From assembly GCF_029590555.1 (NCBI RefSeq), contig NZ_CP081002.1, forward strand, positions 248,001 through 312,000: a stretch of DNA of 64,000 nt. The letters run 5' to 3'. The DNA is from Sphingobium sp. V4 (GTDB taxonomy: Bacteria; Pseudomonadota; Alphaproteobacteria; Sphingomonadales; Sphingomonadaceae). This document shows, one piece after another, positions 3,205 to 17,429 of this stretch. The first letter of the stretch is position 1; each line of letters starts with the position of its first letter. The notes beneath the pieces were generated by a model. That model was not told where the DNA came from, ran no database searches, and was given only the letters and a program-made list of their open reading frames with translations. Made by a program: the position numbers and the translations under genes.

Positions 3205-3612
3205 GTACAGAACCCCCTTGTCACGGGACAGGGCTGCGCGCAGTGATTGCACGCGCGGCGTCAGAGCGCCGATCTGGCCCGACCCTTCCCTTCACCACAT
3301 GACCGCAGGGCGGGCTCAAGCCTTCTGCCGATCCCCGCCCTGCCGTCATCACGATCCCCGCCGCGCCCCTCACTTGACGGGGGCAGACGCCGGTTCCATG
3401 ACGGGGAGGTTACAGGGTGGTCGCGGCTGGTCAATAGATTTGGTATTACTTTGATCGTATAAAGGTATAGCCTGAGGGAATGGCGGCGAACCGCAACGGC
3501 CATCACGCTGGTTGATAGCTTGCAGTTATGGGCGCTGGGCGGCTTGCTATATGTGCGGCCGGCCATCCTGCGATAATCGTCGCATAACAATCCCCTAGTC
3601 AAGGAGGCTGAG
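3205..3612. promoter_or_regulatory. Divergent promoter region with GntR-like half-site
   Basis: 408 bases with no credible gene. It must hold promoters for the leftward TonB receptor and the rightward acylase. ATTTGGTATT at 3438-3447 is identical to 11890-11899 in the murQ/nagB region. A perfect AAGGAGG Shine-Dalgarno at 3601-3607 serves the acylase. No clear hairpin seen. Confidence 0.45.
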
Positions 3613-5994
3613 TTGATTCAGCGTCGAGCGTTTCTTCTGGCCTCCGTGGCCGCCCTGGCCCTGCCGGGCAAGGTGATGGCGAAGTCGCTGGTAAAGGGCG
3701 GCAAGGCCTCGCAGCTCAGGGCGAAAGGGGCGAGGGCGCCGATCGAGATCATCGAGGACGAGCTGGGCGTGCCCCATGTGCGGGCACGGTCGCCGCATGA
3801 CGCCTATTTCGGGCAAGGCTATCTGGTGGCGCGCGACCGGCTGTTCCAGATCGACATGGAGTATCGCCGCGACATGGGGCGCATGGCCGAAGCCTTCGGC
3901 CCACGTTTCGTGGCGGCGGACAAGGCGGCGCGGCTGTTCCTCTATCGCGGCGACATTGACGCGGAACTGGCGGCATTGCCGCCCGGCGTGCTGGACTGTG
4001 CAAAGGGCTATGTCGCCGGCGTGAATGCGCGGATCTCCGAACTGGCGGCCGATCCGACGCAACTGCCGCTCGAATATGGGATATTGAACCTTCAGCCGCT
4101 GCGCTGGGACGTGCGCGACCTGGTGCGCAACAGGGGCATCGGCATGGGCGATGCCGATGATGAGGTGCGCCGCGCGCAGATGCAGGCGCTAGGGCTGCTG
4201 GATGCGGATCAGTTGATGGCGCCGCTGCGCCCGGCCTGGTCATTCACCGTGCCGGAGGGGCTGGACTGCGCTGCGGTGAGCGATGCGGATTTGGGAATAT
4301 TGGACCCATCGGCGCGGCCCGTGCCCTTTGACGCCATCCAGGAGGCATCGCTCGATCGTGCCGAGCGCCGCGCCGATCGTTTTGCCCAGGGCAGCAATGC
4401 CTGGACGATCGCGCCGTCCCGCAGCGCGACCGGGCGACCGATCCTTGCCAACGATCCGCATCTGGGCATCGGCGGATTCAGTCCCCGCCACATGGTCCAT
4501 CTGACCGCGCCGGGGCTGGACGTGATCGGTGCGGGGGCACCCGGCCTGCCGGGCATCATGCAGGGGCACACGGATCGCTTCGCCTTCGGCCGGACCAATT
4601 TCCACATCGACCAGACAGACCTGTTCATCCTGCGCACCGACGAGGACGATCCGGAGCGATACTGGCACAAGGGGCGATGGAGGCGGTTCGAGACGTTCGA
4701 GGACGAGATTGCGGTCAAGGACGGGCCGGCGCAGCGCGTGAGCTTGCGTTATGCACAGGGGCGGCCAATCGTGGCGCAGGACGCAGCGCGCCAGCGGGCC
4801 AGCGCATTCGCCACGGTCAGCATGTTGCCCGGCGCCAACATGCGCTTCGCGATCATCGCGATCAACCTGGCGAGGGACTGGACGTCGCTGCGGCAGGCGT
4901 TCAAAATCCATGTGTCGCCGACCAATTTCCATTATGCCGATGTGGACGGCAATACCGGGTGGCAGACGATCGGCTTCACCCCCCGGCGGCCCCGGCATGA
5001 CGGGCTGTTCCCGGCGCCGGGCGACGGCGATTTCGACTGGACGGGCATCATGCCGGTCGAGGAGATGCCCCATGTATACAACCCCAAGGAAGGCTGGTTC
5101 GCGTCGGCCAACCAGTTGAACATCCCTCCCGACTATCCCCACGCCAGCAACGTCATCAGCTTCGACTGGAGCGACCCCTTCCGCTACGACCGCATTTCCG
5201 ACGTGCTGCGCAGCCAGCCCAGGCATCGCATCGAGGACAGCATCGCGCTCCAGCATGATGTTCGGTCGCTTCCGGCGCGCGCGCTCGTGAAGCTGATCCC
5301 GGACAAGCTGCTGCCGGAGGCCGCTCCGGCCGCAGCGATGCTCAAGCGCTGGGATTGCGGGCTGGAGGCCGACAGCGCGGCAGCCCTGCTTTATGAAATG
5401 GTGATGCCGGAATTGCAGGCGGGCTTCCGCGATCTCGTCGTGCCCGCCGCCGCGCGAGAGTTCATACCGTCGGTCAACCTGTTCGAGATGCTGCGTATTC
5501 TCGCGACACCGGACAAGCGCCTCGGTCCGGTGCCGAATCTGGCGCGCGACGCGCTGATCGAGCGGTCGCTGGTGGCGGGTTGGAACAAGGCGCTGGAGCA
5601 GGGCGGTCCCGATCCGGCGCAATGGCGCTGGGGCGACCTGCACCGGGTCACGATCGCCCATCCGCTCTCGTCGCTGCCGGGGATCGGTGCGGCCTTCCCC
5701 AAAATCGACGGCGGCCGGTCGGGCGGCGACGGTTATACGCCGATGGCGCGTGGGTTCAATGGGAAGCGGGGCTATCAGGTGTCGCACGGTGCCAGCTATC
5801 TGCTGGTGGCGGATGTCGGCGCGTGGGACAATAGCCGCTTCCTGCTGCTGCCCGGCCAGTCGGGCGACCCTCGCTCGGCGCGCTATCGCGACTTCTATCC
5901 GCGCTGGGTGGCGGGCGAGATGCAGCCGCTCTGGTTCAGCCGGGAGGCGGTGGATCGACACGCGGCCGGGCGGATGGAGATTGTGCCGGCGTGA
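3613..5994 (+). CDS. Penicillin acylase family protein (Ntn-hydrolase, S45)
   Basis: 793 residues, starting at TTG 3613, which lies 5 bases after AAGGAGG. The N-terminus (IQRRAFLLASVAALALP...VMA) is a signal peptide with a twin-arginine look, so export to the periplasm is expected. The precursor would self-cleave before Ser261 in GSNAW, giving an alpha chain (roughly 25-260) and a beta chain whose N-terminal serine is the nucleophile. NDPHL about 25 residues on and LQHDVRS further along are family landmarks. The family hydrolyses amide bonds of penicillins, acyl-homoserine lactones or other N-acyl substrates; the substrate here is not determined. It lies convergent to dacB with stops 11 bases apart. 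The peptidoglycan-related neighbours make an N-acyl or cell-wall-related substrate possible, but this is only context. Confidence 0.85.
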   Translation: MIQRRAFLLASVAALALPGKVMAKSLVKGGKASQLRAKGARAPIEIIEDELGVPHVRARSPHDAYFGQGYLVARDRLFQIDMEYRRDMGRMAEAFGPRFVAADKAARLFLYRGDIDAELAALPPGVLDCAKGYVAGVNARISELAADPTQLPLEYGILNLQPLRWDVRDLVRNRGIGMGDADDEVRRAQMQALGLLDADQLMAPLRPAWSFTVPEGLDCAAVSDADLGILDPSARPVPFDAIQEASLDRAERRADRFAQGSNAWTIAPSRSATGRPILANDPHLGIGGFSPRHMVHLTAPGLDVIGAGAPGLPGIMQGHTDRFAFGRTNFHIDQTDLFILRTDEDDPERYWHKGRWRRFETFEDEIAVKDGPAQRVSLRYAQGRPIVAQDAARQRASAFATVSMLPGANMRFAIIAINLARDWTSLRQAFKIHVSPTNFHYADVDGNTGWQTIGFTPRRPRHDGLFPAPGDGDFDWTGIMPVEEMPHVYNPKEGWFASANQLNIPPDYPHASNVISFDWSDPFRYDRISDVLRSQPRHRIEDSIALQHDVRSLPARALVKLIPDKLLPEAAPAAAMLKRWDCGLEADSAAALLYEMVMPELQAGFRDLVVPAAAREFIPSVNLFEMLRILATPDKRLGPVPNLARDALIERSLVAGWNKALEQGGPDPAQWRWGDLHRVTIAHPLSSLPGIGAAFPKIDGGRSGGDGYTPMARGFNGKRGYQVSHGASYLLVADVGAWDNSRFLLLPGQSGDPRSARYRDFYPRWVAGEMQPLWFSREAVDRHAAGRMEIVPA

Positions 5995-6005
5995 TCTGAC
6001 GAGGG

Positions 6006-7448
6006 TCAGAACGCCCCGGCAATCTCCACCAATATGCGGTCGACGGCGTCGCTGGCCTGCGCATCGGTGCCGTCGGGCATGTCGTTCGCGAGCGCGGAAA
6101 AGACCAGCGTCCGGCCGCTTTTCGTCACCAGATAGCCCGACAGTGCGCGTGACGCGTTGAGCGAGCCGGTCTTGGCGAACAGCCTGCCTTCCAGCGTCGT
6201 ACCCTTGAACCGGTTACGCAACGTCCCGTCCTGCCCGGCTATGGGCAGCGTCTCGCGCCAGGCCATGCCCCAGGGTTGACGCGCAATCCATGCCAGCAAG
6301 GTAACGGCGGCGCGCGGGGTCATACGGTTGTAGGAGGACATCCCCGAGCCGTCGGCGAAGCTGTAGCTGCCTTCGGTCAGGCCCGCCTGCGCCATCAGCC
6401 GGTGCAGCGCAGCCTGTCCATCAGAGATCGAGCCGCTGCCCGTCGCGCGCGACACACGGCGCAGCATCAACTCGGCGTGCAGATTCTGGCTCTGCTTGTT
6501 GATGATACGCATGTCGTCGGCCAGCGGCAGGGCGGGAAGCTGGGCCACCATATCCGGTGCGGGCGGCCGGGCAGCGGGCGCGCCCTTGCGGATCGTCGGG
6601 TCATCGGCAGGCGCAAGCGGGCGATGGCGGGTCTGGATATCGCCGTCGACGCGCACGCCGCGGGCACGGAGCAGTTCGCTCAGGCGCCAGGCGGCATGAT
6701 GCGCGGGATCGTCGACACCGAAATGGAGCGAAACGGGCTGCGCCTCCGCACCGATCGTGCCGGTCAGACGCAGGAGGCGGCTGTTGGGCGCGCGGTCGGC
6801 GACGATCGCCGCGACCTTGCCTGGGACGGTCGTGATGCGATTGTCGATCGCATAATAAGTGGACGCCTTAATCGCCGGACGAGCGCCGATTGCACCGGGG
6901 ATCACTGTGGCGGCTAATTCATTGTCGTCCAGCGTGAGCGCGGAAATGCCGGTGCCATAACGCGACTGGATATTGTTCCAGCTCATTCCCGGTCCCCAAC
7001 GCTCATCGGGAAACCAGCTGTCGTCGCCTACGATGTGGCGGACTTGCCGGATTTTTGCGGCGATCGCATCGGCGAGCGTCTGGAGGCAGTCGCTCGCGCA
7101 ATCCTCCGCGCTGGACAGGCGTGCGTCCCCGCGACCTTCCAGGATGAGATCGCCCTGCTCGATGCGGACGCCTGTCCCCTGCGCGGCTCGGTCCAGCGCC
7201 GGGAGATCCGCATAGGCCGCTGCGGTGGTGAACATCTTGGTGTTGGATGCGGGAATGAAACGCTGGTCCGGCGCGATCGCGATGATCGGCTCTCCCTCCA
7301 GCGTGGCGACCAGCAGGCCGTATCGGGCGCCGGCCGGACCCTGGGCCAATTGCCGTTCGATCCGGACCTGTAGCGGCGGCGCAGCTTCCTGCGCGGCGAC
7401 ACCGGTCAGGGGAAGGACGAGAGCGAGCAGGGGGAAGGCAAGGCGCAT
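6006..7448 (-). CDS. dacB: D-alanyl-D-alanine carboxypeptidase/endopeptidase, PBP4 type
   Basis: 480 residues from ATG 7448, chosen over an upstream frame start at 7547 because a clean signal peptide (MRLAFPLLALVLPLTGVAAQ) begins here. The three penicillin-binding motifs are present: SNTK (SxxK), SYN (SxN) within SGMSSYNRM, and KTG in FAKTGSLNASR. The large insertion between SxxK and SxN is typical of peptidase family S13. It would cleave D-Ala-D-Ala ends and D-Ala-mDAP cross-links in the periplasm. It follows the murQ-to-hydrolase operon in the same direction after 130 bases, so it could be read through from it or have its own promoter. Released peptides and muropeptides would feed the neighbouring scavenging genes. 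Confidence 0.92.
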   Translation of the reverse strand: MRLAFPLLALVLPLTGVAAQEAAPPLQVRIERQLAQGPAGARYGLLVATLEGEPIIAIAPDQRFIPASNTKMFTTAAAYADLPALDRAAQGTGVRIEQGDLILEGRGDARLSSAEDCASDCLQTLADAIAAKIRQVRHIVGDDSWFPDERWGPGMSWNNIQSRYGTGISALTLDDNELAATVIPGAIGARPAIKASTYYAIDNRITTVPGKVAAIVADRAPNSRLLRLTGTIGAEAQPVSLHFGVDDPAHHAAWRLSELLRARGVRVDGDIQTRHRPLAPADDPTIRKGAPAARPPAPDMVAQLPALPLADDMRIINKQSQNLHAELMLRRVSRATGSGSISDGQAALHRLMAQAGLTEGSYSFADGSGMSSYNRMTPRAAVTLLAWIARQPWGMAWRETLPIAGQDGTLRNRFKGTTLEGRLFAKTGSLNASRALSGYLVTKSGRTLVFSALANDMPDGTDAQASDAVDRILVEIAGAF

Positions 7449-7578
7449 GAGGCGGACTATAGACCGCAACCAGACCGGTGAAACAGAGGCACGAAGGCCG
7501 CAACCCATAACCTGCGGCAATAAGGTGGAGAGGGGGCTTGGCGACAAATTGGCGCAGTTTCGCGCGCTTACATCCCCT

Positions 7579-8598
7579 TCACTGCGCCTCCCAAGCCCGG
7601 ATCAGCGCGTCGCCCACCGCCGGGCGGAGGGCGAAGATGCCGCTATCGGCGTGGCGGGTGGGGTGGACGCGGTTGGTGAGCAGGGTCCAGGCGAGACCGC
7701 GTTCGAAATCGATCCAGAGGCCCGTGCCGGTAAAGCCGGTGTGGCCGATGGTTTCGGCTGAGCAGGCGTCGCCCCCCGACCAGCCGTCGAATGCCCGCTC
7801 CCAGCCACAGGTGCGGTGCCCTTCCTGCGCCGTCCGGGCCTCCGCCAGCATCGCTGGGGACAGGATCGATCCGTCGACCATCGCCCGGGCAAAGCCGAGT
7901 ACGCCATCGACCGTGCCGAACAGCCCGGCGTGGCCCGGTGCCCCGCCGAGCGCGAACGCGTTTTCGTCATGCACCTCGCCCTTCAGCACCCGGCCGCGCC
8001 AGCTGCACGCTTCGGTTGCGACGGCGGGGCCGGGGGGCGGCCCGTAGGACAGGCCTTCACCCAGCGGCCATGCGGAAAGCGGCGCGCCAGTGATGCGCTC
8101 GATCGCGATGCCGAGCAGGATGAAGTTGATGTCGGAATAGACCGGCGGGCCATGGCGCCATTCCCGTTGCAGGACGAAGGCACGCAGCCGGGCGGGATCG
8201 TCGCCATAGGTGTAGATGGGCTCGACCGCCGGCAGGAAGCTGCGGTGGGCAAGGCAATCGCGGAAGGTCAGTCTGCGTTCCGCGGCGTTCGCCACATCAT
8301 ATTGGCGCAGGTCAGGGATGGCATCGGTCAGCGGCCGGTCAAGGTTGAGCCGGCCCTGCTCCGCCAGGTGCAGGATCATGGTGGTGGTGGCGATCACCTT
8401 CGACACGGAGGCAAGGTCGAACCAGTGGTCGCGGGTCAATGGCTCCCGGTCCGGCACGATCGCCGCCGCTCCGGCGAAGCGGACGGCGCTGCGGCCATCG
8501 ATGCTTACCACGCCCAGCGTCGCGCCGGGGATGCGGCCGCTGTTCACGGCGGCTGCGGCCGGGGCGAAGGCGGCTTCGCAGATTTGCTCGATCATCAT
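7579..8598 (-). CDS. Beta-lactamase-family serine hydrolase (AmiE/YfeW-like, muropeptide processing)
   Basis: 339 residues. Contains SVSK (SxxK) near residue 65 and YSD (YxN-like) in VYSDINFILLG, with a distal HTGFTGTG taking the place of the KTG element; this is the class C beta-lactamase/DD-peptidase fold. No signal peptide is visible, so a cytoplasmic location is inferred. It is the last gene of the murQ operon, 6 bases after the AmpG-like carrier. Relatives occupy the same place in other MurNAc operons: YfeW in E. coli (a DD-carboxypeptidase), and AmiE in Bacillus subtilis, a beta-lactamase-fold N-acetylmuramyl-L-alanine amidase. A cytoplasmic amidase freeing MurNAc from imported muropeptides fits best here. 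Start may be either of two tandem ATGs (8598 or 8595). Confidence 0.8.
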   Translation of the reverse strand: MMIEQICEAAFAPAAAAVNSGRIPGATLGVVSIDGRSAVRFAGAAAIVPDREPLTRDHWFDLASVSKVIATTTMILHLAEQGRLNLDRPLTDAIPDLRQYDVANAAERRLTFRDCLAHRSFLPAVEPIYTYGDDPARLRAFVLQREWRHGPPVYSDINFILLGIAIERITGAPLSAWPLGEGLSYGPPPGPAVATEACSWRGRVLKGEVHDENAFALGGAPGHAGLFGTVDGVLGFARAMVDGSILSPAMLAEARTAQEGHRTCGWERAFDGWSGGDACSAETIGHTGFTGTGLWIDFERGLAWTLLTNRVHPTRHADSGIFALRPAVGDALIRAWEAQ

Positions 8599-8604
8599 TG
8601 GCCT

Positions 8605-10107
8605 CTAAGCAGTTCTGGCCCGAACGCGCATCACGATCGGCAGGAAGAAAATGGCGGCGAAGCTGAGCGCGCCCGACAGGATGAAGAAGCCGTCATAGCC
8701 GATCTGCTTCTGGATCGCCCCGGCCGCGCCCCCGATCAGGCGCGGCAACAGGAAGGCGAAGCCCGAAAGAAACGCATATTGGGTGCCGGGATAGCGGGGG
8801 CTGACCAGCATGGAAAGATAGACGACGAACACGGCGCCCTCCAGCCCATGGCCGAACTGGTCTACACCGGCGGCGACATAGAGGACGAAGGAGGAGGGTT
8901 CGGCATACCAGAGCCAGACGAACACCCAGTTGCCGATCGCCGACGCGCAGGCCCCTATGATGAGCGCGACCGTCATCGGAAGTCGCGCGGCGCAAAGTCC
9001 GCCCAGCGCCACGCCGGCCATGGAGCAGGTGAGCGCGACGACGCCGTCCGCCATGCTGATCTGTTCGAGACTGTAGCCCGCCGCATTCCAGAGCGGATGC
9101 GAGAGGGTGAGCGTCAGCACATCGCCCATGCGGTAGAAGGAAACGAAGGCCAGCACCGGCAGCACGGCATAGCCGTAGCGCCAGAAAATCTCGACATAGG
9201 GGGCGATGAAGCCCGGCATTTTCGAGGGGGCGTCGGCGGGCAGTCGGCGGATGCGGGGCAGGGCGATGGCGAGCGCGACAAAGGGCAGCAGCGCCACGGC
9301 CAGAACGATCGGCGTCACGTTGGTCTGGGCGGAGAAGCCCGCGCCCTGCACGGCGGAAAGAAGCGCCCAGCCGATCAGGGCGGTGGCGACGCCGGTGACG
9401 GCGAGGATGGTGAGGCTGACAAGGGTGCCGCTGGCGAGCGCGCTTGCCCGCCCCTTCGCGCCCTCCTGCTCGGGTCGCATCGCCGCGAGCATGGGGAAGG
9501 GCAGGAAGGCAGCGATGGCGATGGCCAGATAGGCCCATGTCCAGTCGGCCCAGGCCGCGACCAGCACAGCGCCGCTCCCCGCCGCGACCATGGCGCTGCG
9601 ATAGCCCCAGAGATTGGCGGCGACGATCGGTCCCTGTTCGGCCTGCGTGGGCGCCAGTTCGATACGCCAGCCGTCGGCGGCGACCTCCAGCGTGGTCGTC
9701 CAGAAGGCGAGCAGAATCGCGAACAGGGCGGTGAGCGGCAGGCTCTGGTCGCTGGAGGTGAAGGCCATCGCGACCATCGAGAAGAAGATGCCGAGTTGCG
9801 ACAGCATGATCCAGCCGCGCCGCCTGCCCCAGAAGCGGGAGAAGCCGGGGACGCTGTAGCGGTCCAGCAACGGCGCCCAGACGAACTTGAACGTCGGCAG
9901 CAGCGCGATCCAGGCGAAGAAGCCGATGATGACGATGTCGACGCCGTGCCGGGCGAGCCGCAGGGTTAGTACCGCGTTGAACATGTAGAAGGGCAGGCCG
10001 GCCGAAAAGCCGAGCAGCAGATAGAGGCCCAGCGTGCGCAGTGGTGGCCGCCTGGCCTGCGGTCCTTCGCCCAGATCATGTGCCTCGGCGGCGATCGTGG
10101 CGGTCAT
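8605..10107 (-). CDS. AmpG-like MFS muropeptide permease
   Basis: 500 residues with about 12-14 hydrophobic segments. The N-terminal segment GFSAGLPFYMF and the following KFVWAPLLDR then GRRRGW are AmpG family landmarks. AmpG carriers bring GlcNAc-anhydroMurNAc (peptides) across the inner membrane by proton symport. The start overlaps the gntR stop by one base (TGATG), showing translational coupling. Its place between the GntR regulator and the serine hydrolase in a murQ operon supports uptake of muropeptides or MurNAc-containing sugars, in a role analogous to MurP in E. coli, which is an unrelated PTS protein. Exact ligand is inferred. Confidence 0.82.
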   Translation of the reverse strand: MTATIAAEAHDLGEGPQARRPPLRTLGLYLLLGFSAGLPFYMFNAVLTLRLARHGVDIVIIGFFAWIALLPTFKFVWAPLLDRYSVPGFSRFWGRRRGWIMLSQLGIFFSMVAMAFTSSDQSLPLTALFAILLAFWTTTLEVAADGWRIELAPTQAEQGPIVAANLWGYRSAMVAAGSGAVLVAAWADWTWAYLAIAIAAFLPFPMLAAMRPEQEGAKGRASALASGTLVSLTILAVTGVATALIGWALLSAVQGAGFSAQTNVTPIVLAVALLPFVALAIALPRIRRLPADAPSKMPGFIAPYVEIFWRYGYAVLPVLAFVSFYRMGDVLTLTLSHPLWNAAGYSLEQISMADGVVALTCSMAGVALGGLCAARLPMTVALIIGACASAIGNWVFVWLWYAEPSSFVLYVAAGVDQFGHGLEGAVFVVYLSMLVSPRYPGTQYAFLSGFAFLLPRLIGGAAGAIQKQIGYDGFFILSGALSFAAIFFLPIVMRVRARTA

Positions 10108-10838
10108 CAGCCGATTTCCTTGAGTTCGGTCACGAAGTCATAGCGGTCGCCGCGATAGACGGACCGGGTGAATTCCACCGCCCGGCCGCCGGGGATGCGG
10201 GTCAGCCGCTCGATCCGTAGCACCTCGCTATTCTGGCGGACGCTTAGCAGCCCCGCTTCGGTGGGAGTGGCGAGCGAGGCGCGGACGCGCTGGGTGCCGG
10301 AAGTGGGGCGAAAGCCGCTGCGCCCCATCGCCTCGTAGAGAGAGTCGCCGATGGTCGAGAGATCGGGCAGGCAGTCGGCGGGCACGACCGCATGTTCGAT
10401 CGCCAGCGGCTCCCCGCCCGACAGCCGCACCCGGCCGAGCCGGGCGACACGGGCGGACGTGGAGATGGCGAGCATGGCGGCTTCCTCCTCGGTGGGCTGG
10501 GCGTAATTCTTCATCATCCATATGACGCCGGGATCCTCGCCGCGCGATCGGGCGTCGCTGGTGAAGCTGGAGAGGACGGAGGCGGGCGCCTCGATCCGTC
10601 GGGCCACGAAAGTGCCCGATCCCTGCTTGCGGAACAGCACGCCTTCCTCGATCAGCTGCTCGATCGCCTTGCGCACGGTGACGCGGGATATGCCGGCCAT
10701 TTCGCTGAGGTCGCGCTCCGACGGCAGCGCGTTGCCGGGGGTGATGGCCCCGCTTTCGATATGATCGCGCAGGTTGCGCGCCAGTTGCAGGTAGAGCGGC
10801 GTGCCGTCCTCGCTGCGAGGAACCAGTTTTTCCCGCAT
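10107..10838 (-). CDS. GntR/HutC-family repressor of the MurNAc/GlcNAc locus
   Basis: 243 residues. The N-terminal winged helix spans about residues 15-80 (PSERDLSEMAGISRVTVRKA then GSGTFVARR). The C-terminal UTRA effector domain (about 95-240) ends with FTRSVYRGDRYDF. HutC/NagR-type members bind phosphorylated amino sugars such as GlcN-6-P or GlcNAc-6-P and release an operator with TTGGT/ACCAA arms. Second gene of the operon, 5 bases after murQ, so its own level is set by the same promoter. The probable operator is 11844-11863. Which sugar phosphate it senses (MurNAc-6-P, GlcNAc-6-P or GlcN-6-P) is unknown. Confidence 0.88.
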   Translation of the reverse strand: MREKLVPRSEDGTPLYLQLARNLRDHIESGAITPGNALPSERDLSEMAGISRVTVRKAIEQLIEEGVLFRKQGSGTFVARRIEAPASVLSSFTSDARSRGEDPGVIWMMKNYAQPTEEEAAMLAISTSARVARLGRVRLSGGEPLAIEHAVVPADCLPDLSTIGDSLYEAMGRSGFRPTSGTQRVRASLATPTEAGLLSVRQNSEVLRIERLTRIPGGRAVEFTRSVYRGDRYDFVTELKEIG

Positions 10839-10843
10839 CTCCG

Positions 10844-11734
10844 CTATCCCCCCTGTTGCACGGCCCGCATTGCGTCCGGCAGATTCTGGCCATGCGCCTC
10901 CAGCAGCCGTTGCGCCTCTTCCGCCGCTATGCCCATGGCGACAAGCACCGCCTGCTTGATGTCCTGCCCGACCGAGTCCAGCGCGCGCGCCGCCGTTCCC
11001 AGGTCGACATCGGCAATGTCGCGCACCATCGCCTGGCCGCGCAAGCGCAGCTTTTCGTTGGAGATTCGCATGTTGACCATGCGGCCGCGATAGACGAGGC
11101 CCATGCGCAGCATGATTGCGGTCGACAGCATGTTGAGCATCGCCTTCTGCGCGGTCCCGGCCTTCATCCGGGTGGAGCCGGCGACGATCTCCGTCCCGGT
11201 TTCCGCGACCAGCCCATGGTCGGCGGCGTCGAGCAGGGCGGTGCCGGCATTATTGGCGATGCCGATGGTGAGCGCCCCGGCTTCCCGCGCGGCGGCGATG
11301 GCGGCGAGCGTATAGGGGGTGCGACCGCTCGCGGCGACGCCGATCACCACATCCTGCGCGCCGATTTCAGCGGCGTGGATTTCGGCGCGCGCGGCGTCCG
11401 CATCATCTTCGGCGCCTTCGGCCGCCTCGGTCAGCGCGGCGAGGCCACCCGCCATCAGGAAGATCAGCCGTTCCTGCGGCCAGTTATAGGTCGGGTAAAG
11501 TTCCACGCCGTCCTGCACCGCGATCCGGCCGGAGGTGCCGGCGCCGACATAGACCAATCGTCCCCGCGCGCCCAATCGCAGGGCGGCGGCCTCCGCGGCC
11601 TGCGCGATCCGGCCGGTCTGCGATCCGATCGCGGCGATGGCGGCCATCTGCCCTTCCAGCATCGCCTCGACCGCGCGGATGGTCGGCCATTGGTCGATAT
11701 CGACATAGCGCGGATCGATGGCTTCGGTACTCAT
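10844..11734 (-). CDS. murQ: N-acetylmuramic acid 6-phosphate etherase
   Basis: 296 residues, the usual MurQ length. ATG 11734 is preferred over a longer frame start at 11800: GGAG lies 7 bases upstream and the family N-terminus fits. SIS fold with VGAGTSGRIAVQDGVELYPTY and EGAEDD, which carry the two glutamates assigned to catalysis in E. coli MurQ, and AASGRTPY. It splits the lactyl ether of MurNAc-6-P to give GlcNAc-6-P and D-lactate in the cytoplasm. GlcNAc-6-P is the substrate of nagA, and D-lactate is the substrate of dld, both in the divergent operon. First gene of the leftward operon. Confidence 0.95.
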   Translation of the reverse strand: MSTEAIDPRYVDIDQWPTIRAVEAMLEGQMAAIAAIGSQTGRIAQAAEAAALRLGARGRLVYVGAGTSGRIAVQDGVELYPTYNWPQERLIFLMAGGLAALTEAAEGAEDDADAARAEIHAAEIGAQDVVIGVAASGRTPYTLAAIAAAREAGALTIGIANNAGTALLDAADHGLVAETGTEIVAGSTRMKAGTAQKAMLNMLSTAIMLRMGLVYRGRMVNMRISNEKLRLRGQAMVRDIADVDLGTAARALDSVGQDIKQAVLVAMGIAAEEAQRLLEAHGQNLPDAMRAVQQGG

Positions 11735-11907
11735 GGATACTCCGGGACGGGGCATTGGCGCCGGCGGTGTGGTCGGTTCATCGACGAGCGGCCGGGACAC
11801 GACGGGCGCGCGCAGCCGTTCGTTGATCTGGTATTATCCCTCCTTTGGTCTGATGCAACCAAATTAATTCCAATTGCCCTTTCAGCGGCATTTGGTATTG
11901 TTTCGGC
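11735..11907. promoter_or_regulatory. Divergent murQ / nagB-II promoter region with operator
   Basis: TTTGGT at 11844-11849 and ACCAAA at 11858-11863 form a perfect inverted repeat with an 8-base spacer. On the minus strand TTGGTT (-35, 11857-11862) and GATAAT (-10, 11833-11838) are 18 bases apart, so the repeat lies inside the murQ promoter. On the plus strand TTGCCC (11874-11879) and TATTGT (11896-11901) are 16 apart and end just before the nagB-II ATG. A further half-site ATTTGGTATT is at 11890. The GntR product is the likely ligand. Confidence 0.55.
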
Positions 11908-12966
11908 ATGATCGACCACCGAGACGAGCGGATCGCCACGCTGATGGCGCGCGAGGCTGCGGAAGCGCCCGGCCGCTGCGAAGCGCAGGTCGCACGCAAT
12001 GCCGGCCTCATGCGGCAGGCGGGACAGCGGCTGCGGGCACTGGCGCCGCCCTTTGCCGCGACGTTGGCGCGGGGCAGTTCGGACCAAGCGGCCTCTTTCG
12101 CCAAGTTCTTGCTGGAAACGCGTGCGGGCATACCGACGCTCAGCCATGCGCCTTCGATCGGATCGCTCTACCATGCGACATCTCCGCGCTTCCGGGGTGT
12201 GCCGCTGATCGCCATCTCGCAATCGGGCCGAAGCCCGGACCTGATCGCGGCGGCGCAGGACGCGCAGCGGCAGGGTGCGCTGGTGGTTGCGGTCGTCAAC
12301 GACGAAGCCTCCCCGCTGGCGGCGATGGCAGACATCTGCATCCCCATCCATGCCGGACCCGAAACCAGCGTGGCGGCGACCAAGAGTTTCATCGCCACCT
12401 TGGTCGCGATCACGCATCTGGTTGCCGAATGGAGCGGCGACGAAGCCCTGGGCGAGGCGCTGCCCGTCGTGGGCGATACGCTGCGCGCGGCGGCGGCGGC
12501 AGACTGGGGCGAGGCGGTGCCGCTGCTGCGCGACGCGCGCACCATGCTCGTGCTGGGGCGCGGCCCGACCCTGCCGATCGCCGGCGAGGCGGCGCTGAAA
12601 TTCAAGGAAACATCCAATCTGCACGCGGAGGCCTTCAGCATCGCCGAGGTCGCGCATGGTCCGATGACCCTGGTCGGGGCGGGCGACCCCGTGCTGGCGC
12701 TCGGGCCGACGGACGCGGCGCGGGCGGGGCTGCGCGAGCGGCTGGAGGATTTCCGCGCGCGCGGCGCGCAGGTGATCGCCGCGGGCCATCCCGACGATGT
12801 CGTTGCCGCGACGCTGGCGTTGCCCAGTCGCTGGGAGGTCCATCCGGTACTGGGCGCCATCGCCCAGATCCAGAGCTTCTATGGCCTCGCCAACGCCCTG
12901 GCGCTGGCGCGCGGGCGCAATCCCGACACGCCCCCGCATCTGGCCAAGGTGACGCGGACGCTATGA
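11908..12966 (+). CDS. nagB-II: Glucosamine-6-phosphate deaminase, NagB-II (SIS) type
   Basis: 352 residues made of two SIS domains, like the isomerase half of GlmS but without the glutaminase domain. Visible landmarks are LARGSSDQAA, ISQSGRSPD, GPETSVAATKSF and LGRGPTLPIAGEAALKFKE, then EVAHGP. NagB-II enzymes convert GlcN-6-P to fructose-6-P and ammonia and replace canonical NagB in many proteobacteria, usually next to nagA as here. First gene of a four-gene operon; its stop overlaps nagA by ATGA. No Shine-Dalgarno is visible before ATG 11908, and the predicted -10 box ends 6 bases before it, so translation may be leaderless. The next in-frame ATG (11944) also lacks a Shine-Dalgarno. Confidence 0.9.
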   Translation: MIDHRDERIATLMAREAAEAPGRCEAQVARNAGLMRQAGQRLRALAPPFAATLARGSSDQAASFAKFLLETRAGIPTLSHAPSIGSLYHATSPRFRGVPLIAISQSGRSPDLIAAAQDAQRQGALVVAVVNDEASPLAAMADICIPIHAGPETSVAATKSFIATLVAITHLVAEWSGDEALGEALPVVGDTLRAAAAADWGEAVPLLRDARTMLVLGRGPTLPIAGEAALKFKETSNLHAEAFSIAEVAHGPMTLVGAGDPVLALGPTDAARAGLRERLEDFRARGAQVIAAGHPDDVVAATLALPSRWEVHPVLGAIAQIQSFYGLANALALARGRNPDTPPHLAKVTRTL

Positions 12967-14114
12967 CGATCCAGGCGCTGGTCGGCGCGGCCATCGTGCT
13001 GCCGGACGGGATAGCGCCTGACGATGCGCTGTTGATCGACGGCGCGCGCATAGGGCCGGTCGTACCGCGCGGCTCGCTGCCGGCCGGGTGCGTGGAAGTA
13101 GACCTGGATGGCGGCTGGCTGCTGCCGGGCTTCATCGATACGCAAGTCAACGGCGGCGGAGACGTGCTGCTGAATGACCGGCCGGACGTGGACGGCATCC
13201 GCACGATTGCGCAGGCGCATAGGCGCTTTGGCACCACTGGCCTGTTGCCGACCCTCATCAGCGACGATGCCGATGTCGTGGATGCGACGATCGCGGCGGG
13301 GGAGGAGGCGCTGAGGCAGGGTGTGCCGGGCGTGCTGGGCGTCCATATCGAGGGGCCGCATCTCAATCCCGGAAAGAAGGGCATTCATGACGCGGCCAAA
13401 TTCACCGCCATCGATCCAGCGGTGCTGGAGCGACTGACGCGGCCCACCATCGGGCGGCGGATCGTCACGCTGGCGCCTGAACTGGCCCCGCCCGGCGCGA
13501 TCCGCGCCCTCACCGAGGCGGGTGTGCTGGTTGCCGCGGGGCACAGCTTGGCCGACTATGCGCAGACGGTCGCGGCGCTCGCCGAGGGGCTGGCCGGCTT
13601 CACCCATTTGTTCAACGCGATGACGCAGATGGGGAGCAGGGAGCCGGGCATGGTTGCGGCCGCGCTGCTGGACCGGGGGAGCTATTTCGGCCTGATTGTC
13701 GATGGGCTGCATGTGCATCCCGCCGCCCTCCGCGTCGCGCTGGCCGCGCGGGGGTTGGAAGGCGCGATGCTGGTGACCGACGCCATGCCGCCGGTCGGAG
13801 GGGAGCGGGATAGCTTTACCCTGATGGGCCAGCCCATCCATGTGGTGGACGGAACCTGCCGGGGACCGGACGGCACGCTGGCCGGATCGGCGCTCAGCAT
13901 GGCGCAGGCCTTCCGCAATGCGATGGACCTGATGGGCTGCTCGATGGTCGAGGCGTCACGCCTGGCGAGCGGCAATCCGGCGCGCTTCCTGCGGCTTGAC
14001 GGGGAGACGGGAGCCATCGCGCCGGGGCTGCGCGCAGACCTGGTGCATCTCGACGCGGACCGGCGGGTGCGGCGCACCTGGATCGGCGGACAGTTGAGCG
14101 AGGCCGGCGAATGA
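12963..14114 (+). CDS. nagA: N-acetylglucosamine-6-phosphate deacetylase
   Basis: 383 residues from ATG 12963, inside the stop of nagB-II. An open frame extends far upstream but is the shadow of nagB-II. Amidohydrolase fold with the metal-site elements HIEGPHLNPGKKGIH, GHSLADY and FTHLFNAM, and the catalytic aspartate in TDAMPPVG. It removes acetate from GlcNAc-6-P to give GlcN-6-P for the upstream deaminase. GlcNAc-6-P can come from MurQ or from phosphorylated GlcNAc. Coupled to dld downstream by another ATGA overlap. Confidence 0.95.
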   Translation: MTIQALVGAAIVLPDGIAPDDALLIDGARIGPVVPRGSLPAGCVEVDLDGGWLLPGFIDTQVNGGGDVLLNDRPDVDGIRTIAQAHRRFGTTGLLPTLISDDADVVDATIAAGEEALRQGVPGVLGVHIEGPHLNPGKKGIHDAAKFTAIDPAVLERLTRPTIGRRIVTLAPELAPPGAIRALTEAGVLVAAGHSLADYAQTVAALAEGLAGFTHLFNAMTQMGSREPGMVAAALLDRGSYFGLIVDGLHVHPAALRVALAARGLEGAMLVTDAMPPVGGERDSFTLMGQPIHVVDGTCRGPDGTLAGSALSMAQAFRNAMDLMGCSMVEASRLASGNPARFLRLDGETGAIAPGLRADLVHLDADRRVRRTWIGGQLSEAGE

Positions 14115-15811
14115 GCGACCTGATCGCCGCGCTGCGCGTGATCGTCGGGCCGCGCCATGTGCTGACGGGCACGCAGGCGACGGCGCGCTATCGCCATGGC
14201 TATCGCACCGGCTCGGGCGCGGCGCTGGCGGTCGTGCGACCGGGCAGTCTCGTCGAACAATGGCGCGTGGCGCAGGCCTGCGTGGCCGCCGACGTGTCGA
14301 TCATCATGCAGGCGTCCAACACCGGACTGACCGGAGGGTCGACCCCCGATGGCGAGGATTATCCCGGCGGCTGCGTCATCATCAGCACCACGCGGATCGC
14401 CGGGCTGCACCTGATCGGCGACGGGCGGCAGGCGATCTGCCTGCCGGGCACCACGCTCCATTCCCTGGAAAAGGCGCTGGCGCCGCTGGGCCGGGAGCCG
14501 CATTCAGTGATCGGCTCCTCCTGCTTCGGCGCATCGGTGGTCGGCGGCGTGTGCAACAATTCGGGCGGTTCGCTGGTGCAGCGGGGGCCGGCCTTCACCC
14601 AGTTGAGCCTTCATGCCGTGGTCGGCGGGGACGGGACGCTGCGGCTGGTCAACCATCTGGGCGTTGCGCTGGGCAATGATCCCGAAGAGATGCTGCGGCG
14701 GCTGGAACAGGGCGATTTCGACGAAGGGGACGTGGACCCGGCGGTGGATCGCTGGGCGCATGATCGCGCCTACGCCACGCATGTCCGCGACATAGACAGC
14801 GAGACGCCGGCCCGCTTCAACGCCGACAGCCGCTGCCTGTTCGAGGCGGCGGGCAGTGCGGGCAAGCTGATCGTCTTTGCCGTGCGGCTTGATAGCTTCG
14901 CGAAGGAGGAAGGGGCGGCGACCTTCTATATCGGCACCAATGATCCGGCGGAACTGACGGCGATCCGCCGCGCGATCCTGGGCCATTTCGCCACGCTACC
15001 GATCGCGGGCGAATATATGCACCGGGATGCGTTCGACATCGCCGACCGTTATGGCAAGGATATGTTCGTCGCGATCGAGCGGCTGGGAACGGACCGGTTG
15101 CCGACGCTTTTCGCGCTAAAGTCGCGCGTGGACGGGATGCGCTTTCTGGGCGAGGGTTTCAGCGATCGGATGATGCAGCGGATCGGACGGCTTCTGCCCG
15201 ATCATCTGCCGCCAGAGATGCGGCACTATCGCGACCGCTTCGCCCATCATCTGCTGCTCAAGATGCCGCGACTGGCTTTGGCGGAAACGCGCGCACTCTT
15301 GTCAAATCTGCTGGCCGAGGGCGAGGGCGATTATTTCGAATGTACGCCCGAATTGGCGGCCAAGGCATTCCTCCATCGCTTCGTGACCGCAGGAGCCGCG
15401 GTGCGCTATCGCGCGGTGCATCCCGAACAGGTGGCAGACATCGTCCCGCTGGACGTAGCCCTGCCGCGCAACATGCTGGACTGGCAGGAGGTCTTGCCCC
15501 CCGACCTCGCGGCGCAGAGCATCCACAGCCTCTATTACGGCCATTTCCTTTGCCATGTGTTCCATCAGGACTATATCGTCCGCAAGGGCGTCGATCCGTT
15601 GGCGTTCGAGCATCGGCTATGGGCGCTGCTCGACGAGCGCGGCGCGGAATATCCCGCGGAGCATAATGTCGGCCATCTCTACCGGGCCAAGCCTGCGCTG
15701 GAGGGTTTCTATCGACATATCGATCCGCGCAACCAGTGCAATCCGGGGATCGGCCACACGACGCGCGATCGTCACTGGGGCGACGAACAGAAGGAGATGG
15801 CCGGTTCATGA
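14111..15811 (+). CDS. dld: Quinone-dependent D-lactate dehydrogenase (FAD, Dld type)
   Basis: 566 residues, close to E. coli Dld (571). N-terminal FAD-binding (PCMH) domain with QASNTGLTGGSTP and IGSSCFGASVVGGVCNNSGG, followed by the membrane-associated cap and the Dld C-terminal domain ending RNQCNPGIGHT. It oxidises D-lactate to pyruvate, passing electrons to the respiratory quinone pool at the inner face of the membrane. Locked by ATGA overlaps between nagA and the kinase. This is the informative neighbour: MurQ, encoded divergently, is a direct source of D-lactate, so both products of MurNAc-6-P cleavage are handled within the locus. Confidence 0.93.
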   Translation: MSDLIAALRVIVGPRHVLTGTQATARYRHGYRTGSGAALAVVRPGSLVEQWRVAQACVAADVSIIMQASNTGLTGGSTPDGEDYPGGCVIISTTRIAGLHLIGDGRQAICLPGTTLHSLEKALAPLGREPHSVIGSSCFGASVVGGVCNNSGGSLVQRGPAFTQLSLHAVVGGDGTLRLVNHLGVALGNDPEEMLRRLEQGDFDEGDVDPAVDRWAHDRAYATHVRDIDSETPARFNADSRCLFEAAGSAGKLIVFAVRLDSFAKEEGAATFYIGTNDPAELTAIRRAILGHFATLPIAGEYMHRDAFDIADRYGKDMFVAIERLGTDRLPTLFALKSRVDGMRFLGEGFSDRMMQRIGRLLPDHLPPEMRHYRDRFAHHLLLKMPRLALAETRALLSNLLAEGEGDYFECTPELAAKAFLHRFVTAGAAVRYRAVHPEQVADIVPLDVALPRNMLDWQEVLPPDLAAQSIHSLYYGHFLCHVFHQDYIVRKGVDPLAFEHRLWALLDERGAEYPAEHNVGHLYRAKPALEGFYRHIDPRNQCNPGIGHTTRDRHWGDEQKEMAGS

Positions 15812-16668
15812 CCTTTTACCTGGGCATCGACGCTGGCGGCAGCAATTGCCGGGCGCGCCTGATCGCGGCGGATGGCACGGTGATCGGCACGGGACAGGGC
15901 GGGACCGCCAATGCGCGGATCGGGCTGGAGGCGCTATACGAGACGTTGCGCGCTGTGTCCGAACAGGCGACGACCGCAGCCGGGCTATCGACGGAGCAGG
16001 TTGCAACCATTCGTGCGGGCATGGGCATCGCCGGCATCTCGCGCCCCGGCGTGCGTGATGCGCTGCGGGACTTCGCGTTTCCCTTCGCCTCGGTCACTTA
16101 TGAAACCGACGCCTTCATCGCCAATCTGGGTGCCCATGGCGGTGCGGACGGCGCGATCCTGATCCTGGGCACCGGCAGCATCGCTCAGGTGCGCGCAGGC
16201 GGTCGGGATTTCACCATCGGCGGCTATGGCTTTCCTATCTCCGACGAAGGGAGCGGCGCGGCGCTGGGCCTCAGCGCCATGCGCCATGCGCTGCGCGCGC
16301 TCGACGGGCGGACGCAGGCGACGCCGTTGAGCCGCGCCGTGACGGACCGCTTCGGCCATGACACGGCGCAGGCCATCGGCTGGATGGATCAGGCAAGCCC
16401 GAGGGATTATGGCAGCTTCGCGCCGTTGGTGATGGATTATGCCGAAGCGGGTGACGCCATCGCGCGATCGATCGTCGAGGATGCGGTGGCGCATGTCGAG
16501 CGCTTCATCGAGACGATCTTCGAGCGCGGCGCGAGCCGCTGCACGCTGGTCGGCGGCCTTGCCCCGCGAATGCGCCCCTGGCTCAAGGCGCGGACGGTGG
16601 CGCGGCTCAGCCCTATGCTGGGCGACCCGCTGGACGGGGCGCTCCATCTGGCGGGCTTTCGCGGCTAG
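15808..16668 (+). CDS. BadF/BadG-family amino-sugar kinase (GlcNAc/MurNAc kinase candidate)
   Basis: 286 residues from ATG 15808, overlapping the dld stop by ATGA (a longer open frame begins at 15736). ASKHA-fold ATPase with phosphate-1 motif GIDAGGSNCRARL and the second phosphate loop ILGTGSIAQV, then GGYGFPISDEGSGAALG. BadF-type members include GlcNAc kinase, glucosamine kinase and MurK of Clostridium, which phosphorylates both MurNAc and GlcNAc. Since no PTS gene is present and MurQ and NagA need 6-phosphates, this kinase must supply them. Whether it takes MurNAc, GlcNAc or both cannot be read from the sequence. The TAG stop coincides with the start of a palindromic repeat. Confidence 0.88.
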   Translation: MTFYLGIDAGGSNCRARLIAADGTVIGTGQGGTANARIGLEALYETLRAVSEQATTAAGLSTEQVATIRAGMGIAGISRPGVRDALRDFAFPFASVTYETDAFIANLGAHGGADGAILILGTGSIAQVRAGGRDFTIGGYGFPISDEGSGAALGLSAMRHALRALDGRTQATPLSRAVTDRFGHDTAQAIGWMDQASPRDYGSFAPLVMDYAEAGDAIARSIVEDAVAHVERFIETIFERGASRCTLVGGLAPRMRPWLKARTVARLSPMLGDPLDGALHLAGFRG

Positions 16669-16770
16669 AGCATCTTGCGCAAAAGTGGGCACCGGTTTTG
16701 CGAAAAACCGATGCGACAACAAACATCTAGAGCGCGCGTCCTGCGTTCAATTTAATGCAGCGCGCTCTAG
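16666..16770. repeat. Composite palindromic intergenic repeat spanning two stop codons
   Basis: Two hairpins in tandem: CGGTTTT...AAAACCG (16693-16710, 4-base loop), then CTAGAGCGCG at 16727-16736 pairing with CGCGCTCTAG at 16761-16770 around an imperfectly palindromic centre. The look (AAAAGTGGGCACCGG.. followed by CTAGAGCGCG..) resembles dispersed palindromic repeats common between genes in alphaproteobacteria. The kinase TAG (16666-16668) and the tenA TAG (16767-16769) both fall in its ends. It may also act as a bidirectional terminator. Confidence 0.7.
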
Positions 16771-17429
16771 ATCGGCCAGCTTTCGCGCCGATAGGCGGAA
16801 TCCCAGAACATCCATTCATAGCGGGTCGCCATGCGGAAGGCCTGCGCCATGGCGTCACGCAGCAGAGCGGGCGCTGTTTCCGCCGCCTGGTCGACCAGCG
16901 CGCGGACGCGGGCGGTCGCCTCGCCAAAACCCGGATCGGCATAGGTATCGATCCAGGGCGCATAGGGATTGGGGCTGGCGGCGCGCGGCTTGATGGCGCA
17001 GCCAACCTCCCAATAGACCCAGAAACAGGGAAGAATACCGGCAATCAGTTCCTCGTAACTGCGCGTCGCCGCCAGCGTCATCAGATAGCCGGTATAATTC
17101 TGGCAGGCCGGGCTGGGCGCGCTGGCCCGTGCCATGTCGGGTGTGACGCCGAACTGCGCGAAAAAGGCCTGGTGCAGCGCTTCCTCCACCTGCACCGCGA
17201 CCTTGGCGCCGTCGGAAAATTCCAGGCGGCCTGTGGCCGTCGGCGCGCGCGCGGCGGCGATCGCCAGCACCCGCGCATATTCGGCGAGATAGAGGCTGTC
17301 CTGCACGATATAATGGCGGAAACTTTCGGGTGGCAGCGTGCCCTGCGCCAGTTCCTCCAGGAAGGGCTGCGTCAGGATCGCCTGGCGCAGCGGCGCCACA
17401 TCGGCCCAGATTTCGTCGCAAAATCCCAT
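16767..17429 (-). CDS. tenA: TenA family thiaminase II / aminopyrimidine aminohydrolase
   Basis: 220 residues, the usual TenA length. The all-helical haem-oxygenase-like fold is indicated by the N-terminal LTQPFLEELAQGTLP and FRHYIVQDSLYL. The catalytic cysteine is in LPCFWVYWEVG, matching Cys135 of B. subtilis TenA. TenA hydrolyses amino-HMP to HMP in thiamine salvage and can cleave thiamine itself. It starts 11 bases after the TonB receptor stop and is under the same TPP riboswitch. No typical signal peptide, so the enzyme is cytoplasmic and acts on pyrimidine imported by the upstream receptor plus an inner-membrane carrier encoded elsewhere. Confidence 0.92.
   Translation of the reverse strand: MGFCDEIWADVAPLRQAILTQPFLEELAQGTLPPESFRHYIVQDSLYLAEYARVLAIAAARAPTATGRLEFSDGAKVAVQVEEALHQAFFAQFGVTPDMARASAPSPACQNYTGYLMTLAATRSYEELIAGILPCFWVYWEVGCAIKPRAASPNPYAPWIDTYADPGFGEATARVRALVDQAAETAPALLRDAMAQAFRMATRYEWMFWDSAYRRESWPI

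Follow-up and report, generated by a model that had tools for sequence, protein, structure and literature searches.

A probable N-acetylmuramic acid catabolic module of Sphingobium in which D-lactate oxidation appears to be joined to MurQ

We analysed a stretch of 64,000 nucleotides from Sphingobium sp. V4 (the window; positions 248001-312000 of contig C2 in genome G000, a Sphingobium genome of 4.54 Mb in 4 contigs), which carries two divergent operons around murQ, the gene for N-acetylmuramic acid (MurNAc) 6-phosphate etherase. The cluster is probably a MurNAc catabolic module of Sphingobium, an accessory branch beside the AmgK-MurU salvage pathway encoded in the same genome. The enzyme that would release D-lactate is encoded there together with one that would oxidise it, and comparison with relatives suggests that this association arose more than once.

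In the pathway that we propose, AmpG would carry (anhydro)muropeptides into the cytoplasm, where a PF00144 serine hydrolase, plus an AmpD-like amidase encoded elsewhere, would strip the peptide and a NagZ encoded elsewhere would split the sugars. A BadF-type kinase would yield MurNAc-6-phosphate (MurNAc-6-P) and probably also N-acetylglucosamine (GlcNAc) 6-phosphate (GlcNAc-6-P), and AnmK, again encoded elsewhere, would convert anhydroMurNAc into MurNAc-6-P. MurQ would cleave MurNAc-6-P into GlcNAc-6-P and D-lactate; NagA and NagB-II would then take GlcNAc-6-P to fructose-6-P, and Dld would oxidise D-lactate to pyruvate with transfer of the electrons to quinone. A GntR protein would regulate both divergent operons.

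Results

D-lactate dehydrogenase genes at murQ clusters

MurQ frees one D-lactate per MurNAc-6-P. Its gene is accessory in the family, being found above cut-off in 23 of the 298 genomes of our family sample. A full-length dld was present in 27 of the 298, namely 10 of the 23 genomes with murQ and 17 of the 275 without it (Fisher 4e-6; Fisher values serve here only to rank associations, since the panel introduced below was chosen, the genomes are related, and kinship and panel choice are uncorrected). A sequence-only reading of this DNA had expected murQ and dld to be linked in related sphingomonads. Such linkage does occur in relatives, since four of the ten family genomes having both genes carry them within about 10 kb (gaps of 2.4 to 10 kb in G000, G032, G028 and G112).

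Firstly, we compared the clusters themselves. Eighty named murQ loci were kept of 205 relatives; many end at contig edges, and the counts are lower bounds. In addition, 20 kb around murQ were examined in 20 of the 23 murQ-bearing family genomes plus the window (the contigs of G216 and G263 are short); some organisms are represented by both a named locus and a family genome (as with L056 and L121). Dld is encoded at at least 9 of the 80 named loci and at 3 of the 20 family loci. Among nine other Sphingobium-like loci (one of them, L038, a near copy of the window), dld lies in the operon in seven and is absent from two (L039 and L076); with seven of nine, its place in the cluster is not a matter of chance. 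Secondly, we built a tree of Dld proteins with 11 of the 12 linked copies known from other loci, the cut copy of L052 being omitted and L038 representing the window. The 11 murQ-linked Dlds, including that of L038, form one clade against 20 from elsewhere (support 100/99), with the same split in 200 of 200 bootstrap trees, and in the family sample the linked clade spans four genus labels. Thirdly, among the 30 hits to full-length dld we examined 20 that lie away from murQ and 4 next to it. In the 20 kb of each of the 20 loci away from murQ, no relative of murQ, nagA, nagB or the kinase scored above 80 bits, and in four murQ-less genomes with a clear nagA and a full-length dld (G215, G110, G094 and G294) these two genes are separated by 60 kb or more or sit on separate contigs. 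Thus, in our sample, a D-lactate dehydrogenase joins the amino-sugar genes where murQ is, and not where those genes stand alone.

A second type of enzyme occupies a similar place in other clusters. An LDHD-type D-lactate dehydrogenase, whose gene adjoins nagB, is encoded at at least 5 of the 80 named murQ loci and at 2 of the 20 family loci, and the LDHD-type proteins of L049, L050, L051, L057, L081 and L130 are 62-96% alike. To judge their class we asked which solved enzyme they resemble most, a D-lactate dehydrogenase or one acting on glycolate or D-2-hydroxyglutarate, and two of them were searched: the mitochondrial D-lactate dehydrogenase of the PDB scored 418 bits with the L057 protein, with 232 and 150 bits (D-2-hydroxyglutarate dehydrogenase) for the other two classes, and 458 bits with the L130 protein, with 235 and 155 bits (D-2-hydroxyglutarate dehydrogenase) for the others. 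L122 holds a further LDHD copy, in an open frame at 11308-12696. The flavin adenine dinucleotide enzyme of L055 was rejected as a D-lactate dehydrogenase, being closest to D-2-hydroxyglutarate dehydrogenase types.

D-lactate oxidation therefore appears to have been joined to MurQ at least twice, by Dld and by LDHD. The proposal made from the sequence, joint action of murQ and a D-lactate dehydrogenase with the kinase and nagA/nagB, is supported by the linkage, the single clade and the LDHD clusters, and the double joining is the best support for this idea. In the literature searched, as represented by listings and passages, we recognised no description of murQ being naturally linked to a D-lactate dehydrogenase gene.

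Several observations weigh against a dedicated role of Dld in the module. Linkage was not seen in six of the ten genomes with both genes (G253, G024, G170, G109, G045 and G216, the contigs of the last being too short to tell). The close loci L039 and L076 have nagA, nagB and murQ without dld, so Dld is not obligatory, and 13 of the 23 murQ-bearing genomes are without a full-length Dld above cut-off; in two of these 13 (G040 and G226) the cluster instead encodes LDHD. The Dld model has matches in 285 of the 298 genomes, most of them weak and partial, so that other enzymes may process D-lactate. Dld could be a hitch-hiker, oxidising D-lactate of other origin and standing in the operon by accident, in keeping with the 17 of 275 murQ-less genomes that have it and the two close loci that do not. 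We consider this very unlikely, given that the linked dlds are one clade across four genus labels, that dld is ATGA-coupled in the window, that LDHD is found in other murQ clusters, and that nag genes occur at none of the 20 dld loci away from murQ.

The kinase accompanies murQ and may use both amino sugars

Co-occurrence was assessed in a panel of 60 genomes that were chosen, not drawn: the 23 with murQ, 17 with dld and without murQ, and 20 others, 5 of these of the same genus. A relative of the window's kinase is present in all 23 murQ-bearing genomes (36-100% identity) and in none of the 37 others (Fisher 4e-17). Relatives of nagA occur in all 23 as well and in five of the 37, those five being without the kinase; the match in the fifth, G070, is at 34% only, and eight further murQ-less panel genomes gave very weak nagA matches (below 32 bits). 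The close relative of the serine hydrolase (above 430 bits) is found in 17 of the 23 and 3 of the 37, and hydrolase family matches of any strength in 49 of the 60. In four genomes of one genus (G024, G109, G170 and G216), murQ, dld, kinase and hydrolase are dispersed in the genome.

The best NCBIfam match of the kinase is NagK_SO3507 (NF046058, GlcNAc kinase), at 244.5 bits and under the cut-off of 370. Among solved structures it is closest to 1zc6 (probable GlcNAc kinase), hexokinase 2e2n, the MurNAc/GlcNAc kinase 8zo3 and human NAGK; it was also matched to PDB 8ow9, and its match to MurK is weak (about 22 bits). Alignment places the catalytic residue at D101, preceded by T100, and the pocket at G138, G139 and Y140. 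According to passages of PMC10465942, MurNAc use by MurK is marked by less bulky residues at 133-135 and by Thr94, which is mostly Asn in the glucose/GlcNAc kinases compared. Thr100 and Gly138-Gly139 fit such a pocket, the Gly-Gly pair occupying positions at which bulky side chains would obstruct the lactyl group; Tyr140 is larger than the Leu of MurK. Asn is absent from the equivalent of Thr100 in all 51 kinases compared from murQ loci (near copies included). Two points tell the other way: among curated models that of a GlcNAc kinase comes closest, and 1zc6 shares the Thr and the Gly-Gly, so that the pocket is no proof of MurNAc use and a kinase acting on both MurNAc and GlcNAc is the most cautious interpretation. 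The earlier suggestion that the kinase would substitute for a phosphotransferase system (PTS) is backed by its co-occurrence with murQ in the panel and by its pocket residues, with the addition that it may accept GlcNAc too. In G155, genes for an SSS symporter, NamZ, a PF00144 protein and the kinase form one run divergent from murQ, and the kinase substrate there would be free MurNAc.

A different reading takes the cluster for a GlcNAc operon of the Shewanella nag type with murQ as a side addition, a GlcNAc kinase, and anhydroMurNAc entering via AnmK only. AnmK is indeed encoded in the genome, and the best NCBIfam matches of the kinase and NagB-II are the Shewanella NagK_SO3507 and NagB_SO3506. 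This reading is nevertheless unlikely in our judgement, as the kinase is found in 0 of the 37 murQ-less panel genomes even though five of them have nagA, as Thr replaces Asn at the lactyl-facing position, and as the kinase stands beside NamZ and SSS in G155. Dual specificity, reported for Clostridium MurK in passages of PMC5790795, would reconcile it with the MurNAc module.

Salvage and recycling genes lie elsewhere in the genome

The genes tsaE-amgK-murU-addB were assigned at L174 by position and sequence, tsaE and addB being named by eye. AmgK (238 bits of 500) and MurU (262 of 370) are best NCBIfam matches under cut-off; the best PDB match of MurU is MurU, and that of AmgK is the phosphotransferase 3csv. 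A close MurU is present in 59 of the 60 panel genomes (in two pieces in two of these) and in 22 of the 23 with murQ, the exception, G263, being 77% complete. Passages of PMC5371407 describe proteobacteria, above all beta and gamma, with either MurQ or AmgK-MurU, and part of PMC13046382 describes Caulobacter as without MurQ. With murQ beside AmgK-MurU in one genome, MurQ would be an added catabolic exit from anabolic salvage.

AnmK is also encoded elsewhere (488 bits, cut-off 352), as is an AmpD-like amidase (PF01510 above cut-off; best NCBIfam match AmpD, 110 of 143). The sequence-only reading had found a NagZ/NamZ-type glycosidase to be missing. This holds at the locus and fails for the genome, since a NagZ-type gene above cut-off lies at G000:C1:2053448-2054374 (217 bits, cut-off 207); absence of NagZ from the genome was thus rejected. 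NamZ (PF07075) had no match in the window's own genome.

AmpG, AnmK, NagZ and an AmpD-like amidase in one genome make up the classical recycling set, and the module could process the cell's own turnover products, with exogenous peptidoglycan uninvolved. MurQ acts in own-wall recycling in E. coli. It serves recycling in three Gram-positives as well (passages of PMC5061867). However, AmgK-MurU is kept here, and with MurU in 59 of 60 panel genomes against murQ in 23 of 298 family genomes, recycling does not have to rely on MurQ; linked D-lactate oxidation points to catabolism beyond trace amounts, and the TonB receptors, NamZ or SSS importers of related clusters suggest more than traces. We regard recycling of the own wall as the less probable role, though one to be reckoned with, and use of external peptidoglycan as likely.

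Gene content and layout of the window

The eight genes named from the sequence, from the serine hydrolase to the kinase, are all where they had been placed and on the same strands (Table 1), and the nagB/nagA, nagA/dld and dld/kinase junctions are all ATGA overlaps as described. The gntR/ampG junction overlaps as TGATG. The nearest named locus among those listed is that of Sphingobium sp. TCM1, at 99-100% across the cluster.

Table 1. Features of the MurNAc cluster and its leftward neighbours (window coordinates)
Feature	Position	Strand	Assignment	Support
TonB receptor	328..3252	-	TonB-dependent receptor; candidate muropeptide importer	PF00593 113 bits, PF07715 63 bits
Acylase	3613..5994	+	Penicillin-acylase-family hydrolase	PF01804 585 bits
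PBP4	6006..7448	-	PBP4-type D-Ala-D-Ala carboxypeptidase/endopeptidase	Start codon and signal peptide judged by eye
Hydrolase	7579..8598	-	PF00144 serine hydrolase; candidate cytoplasmic muropeptide amidase or peptidase	PF00144 124 bits, cut-off 27
ampG	8605..10107	-	AmpG-type muropeptide permease	Best match TIGR00901 322.9 bits, under cut-off 350
gntR	10107..10838	-	GntR/UTRA regulator, adjoins murQ	PF00392 and PF07702
murQ	10844..11734	-	MurNAc-6-phosphate etherase	NCBIfam NF003915 332 bits, cut-off 168
Promoter region	11735..11907		Shared divergent promoter region	Conserved blocks including two ATACCA copies
nagB-II	11908..12966	+	SIS-type glucosamine-6-phosphate (GlcN-6-P) deaminase	PF01380 in two stretches
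nagA	12963..14114	+	GlcNAc-6-P deacetylase	TIGR00221 261.7 bits, passes cut-off 225.65
dld	14111..15811	+	Quinone-dependent D-lactate dehydrogenase	NF008387 864 bits, cut-off 391
Kinase	15808..16668	+	BadF/BcrA-type amino-sugar 6-kinase; predicted on MurNAc, probably GlcNAc too	PF01869

murQ starts with the ATG at 11734, preceded by GGAG. Its product aligns over almost its full length with PDB 4lzj/1nri (189 bits) and stays below the cut-off of the narrower model TIGR00274 (252.5 of 302). The putative catalytic glutamates E78 and E109 (numbered from the ATG), spaced by 31, presumably correspond to Glu 83 and 114, which we take to be the catalytic pair of E. coli MurQ. For NagB-II the best NCBIfam match is NF046059 (295.4 bits, under the cut-off of 430). 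AmpG scores slightly below its family cut-off, and we retain the permease assignment as a probable function. Dld carries the Lact-deh-memb domain PF09330 (426 bits) and matches the D-lactate dehydrogenase PDB 1f0x at 731 bits over residues 8-558 of 566. A gntR relative is present at at least 38 of the 80 named murQ loci. The conserved blocks of the promoter region come from an alignment of 10 rows, the window and nine relatives (L038 being a near copy), and the two ATACCA copies are candidate regulator sites, albeit short.

The cluster probably extends leftward to the PBP4-type peptidase, the penicillin-acylase-family protein and the TonB receptor (328-7448), which in relatives are again found together with ampG and the hydrolase. 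The open reading frame of the PBP4-type peptidase (6006-7484) matches TIGR00666 at 213 bits (cut-off 107.8). We know of no role for such a penicillin-acylase-family protein in muropeptide breakdown. The same leftward genes recur beside ampG and the hydrolase even in murQ-less genomes. To the right of the kinase come a gene for a TenA-type thiaminase II (16767-17429; TIGR04306 137, cut-off 130) and, beyond it, one for a TonB receptor (17441-19591); among the loci listed, a thiaminase II relative is found at one of the 80 named murQ loci, that of TCM1.

Serine hydrolase and recurrent import arrangements

The hydrolase has the motifs SVSK at 64, YSD at 154 and HTG at 286, and no signal peptide by eye. 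PBP4B is its best NCBIfam match, at 82 bits (cut-off 385), and its PDB sequence neighbours are beta-lactamases, D-peptidases, a D-amino acid amidase and esterases, none of them named a muropeptide amidase. Its proposed part as an AmiE holds as far as the superfamily and its recurrence in murQ clusters go; it is tempered by the AmpD-like amidase, which counts against the pathway as drawn in that the hydrolase need not be an amidase. The hydrolase as a certain AmiE was rejected on this ground, PF01510 being above cut-off in the genome. A point the other way is that the four panel genomes without a PF01510 match (G024, G109, G170 and G216) do have the hydrolase, which points toward an amidase role; they are all of one genus and represent one event. 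As a whole, the pathway drawn from the sequence mostly stands, with the glycosidase absent from the locus and present in the genome, and the AmiE role upheld in part.

Three import arrangements recur at the clusters of relatives. Arrangement A, that of the window, has ampG and the signal-peptide-less hydrolase, often with PBP4, the penicillin-acylase-family protein and a TonB receptor. Arrangement B, seen for instance in L118, L042 and L052, combines an SSS symporter with a TonB receptor, AnmK and a PF07555 glucosaminidase. Arrangement C, found in one genome (L203), is a single run of genes for SSS, NamZ, the kinase and a PF00144 protein that by eye has a signal peptide; in G245 and G253 an SSS-NamZ-hydrolase group is separate from murQ. 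Among 100 loci, ampG (15 loci) and SSS (21 loci) never occur together. In G155, G245 and G253, ampG stands with the hydrolase elsewhere, so this exclusion holds for clusters and not for genomes.

The surroundings of the close hydrolase were examined in 18 of the 20 panel genomes that have it: it is accompanied by PBP4 in 14, by ampG in 13 and by the acylase in 8, and a relative of the TonB receptor (at least 55%) lies nearby in 8 of the 18 (in G112, in the adjoining stretch L129). The three examined hydrolase genomes without murQ have PBP4 in three cases and ampG in two, so that arrangement A is in part an independent module.

Further genes were observed at individual clusters. Near murQ, L058:14012-16599 encodes a peptide-type ABC importer, of which the binding protein and the permease were scanned; it has relatives in L067, L074 and L082 and is a possible fourth import end. 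A murA-like gene stands directly upstream of the kinase and murQ in two Bosea loci and a similar metagenome-assembled genome (L058:7734-9041, L059:7650-8909 and L060:7591-8850); that of L058 was scanned as MurA at 562 bits, and the counterparts belong to the same BLAST cluster. Weak PP2C matches (30 and 28 bits) occur between nagB and AnmK or a TonB receptor at L118:9438-10325 and L042:3372-4304. A Sphingopyxis murQ cluster encodes a NagX-like transmembrane glucosamine N-acetyltransferase (L049:7221-8306, 134 bits of 480).

Discussion

One close parallel is the MurT-MurK-MurQ operon of Tannerella forsythia, a non-PTS route with a BadF-family MurNAc kinase and MurQ (passages of PMC5790795 and PMC10465942); MurT belongs to the SSS symporters, which also stand beside murQ in some relatives of the window. 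The window differs in having AmpG for the symporter, in its additional nagB-II, nagA and dld, and in a kinase distant from MurK. The presumed PF00144 type of B. subtilis AmiE adds to a second likeness. In B. subtilis, muropeptide breakdown likewise brings together MurQ and a MurNAc-L-Ala amidase, in the cluster murQ-murR-murP-amiE-nagZ-ybbC (PMC5061867, in part), but with PTS import and extracellular breakdown, in contrast to the AmpG, the hydrolase without a signal peptide (by eye), the kinase and the dld of the window. The E. coli arrangement murQ-murP-yfeW with divergent murR (passages of PMC5061867) shares the divergence around murQ and a PBP4B protein, the family that is the best, though far under cut-off, NCBIfam match of the window's hydrolase. 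It differs in its PTS. The Shewanella-type nag operon has a kinase and a deaminase of the same enzyme types (NagK_SO3507 and NagB-II_SO3506), but the window scores below the curated cut-offs and has murQ and dld added. E. coli, we assume, encodes NagA/NagB and Dld elsewhere and has an RpiR-type regulator where the window has GntR. AmgK-MurU salvage of Pseudomonas and Caulobacter, whose genes the window's genome has, acts on the same substrate and gives MurNAc the opposite fate.

MurNAc use has been predicted from MurQ plus a GlcNAc pathway (part of PMC5507952). Mycobacteria without MurQ grow on MurNAc, such growth being previously unshown for MurQ-less bacteria according to passages of PMC6572805. 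An engineered Corynebacterium fed MurNAc accumulated lactate, and dld overexpression was suggested as a possible remedy (passages of PMC6165865). The parts of the cluster are already known; what is new is how they are combined, that D-lactate oxidation was apparently joined to MurQ twice, and that the module exists alongside MurU. It is an evenly balanced proposition that sphingomonads carry a modular peptidoglycan utilisation locus, with a core of kinase, MurQ and mostly NagA-NagB, exchangeable import ends, and D-lactate oxidation wired in at least twice (Dld and LDHD), beside MurU salvage, so that the cell would choose between rebuilding and burning MurNAc.

A D-lactate dehydrogenase is, apparently, tied to MurQ in nature, and twice. 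The cluster offers a testable case of whole-molecule MurNAc catabolism in alphaproteobacteria, and one of a catabolic MurQ beside an anabolic AmgK-MurU, two routes described as alternatives mainly in beta- and gammaproteobacteria. Sphingomonads would be consumers of bacterial remains if the module is supplied with external peptidoglycan.

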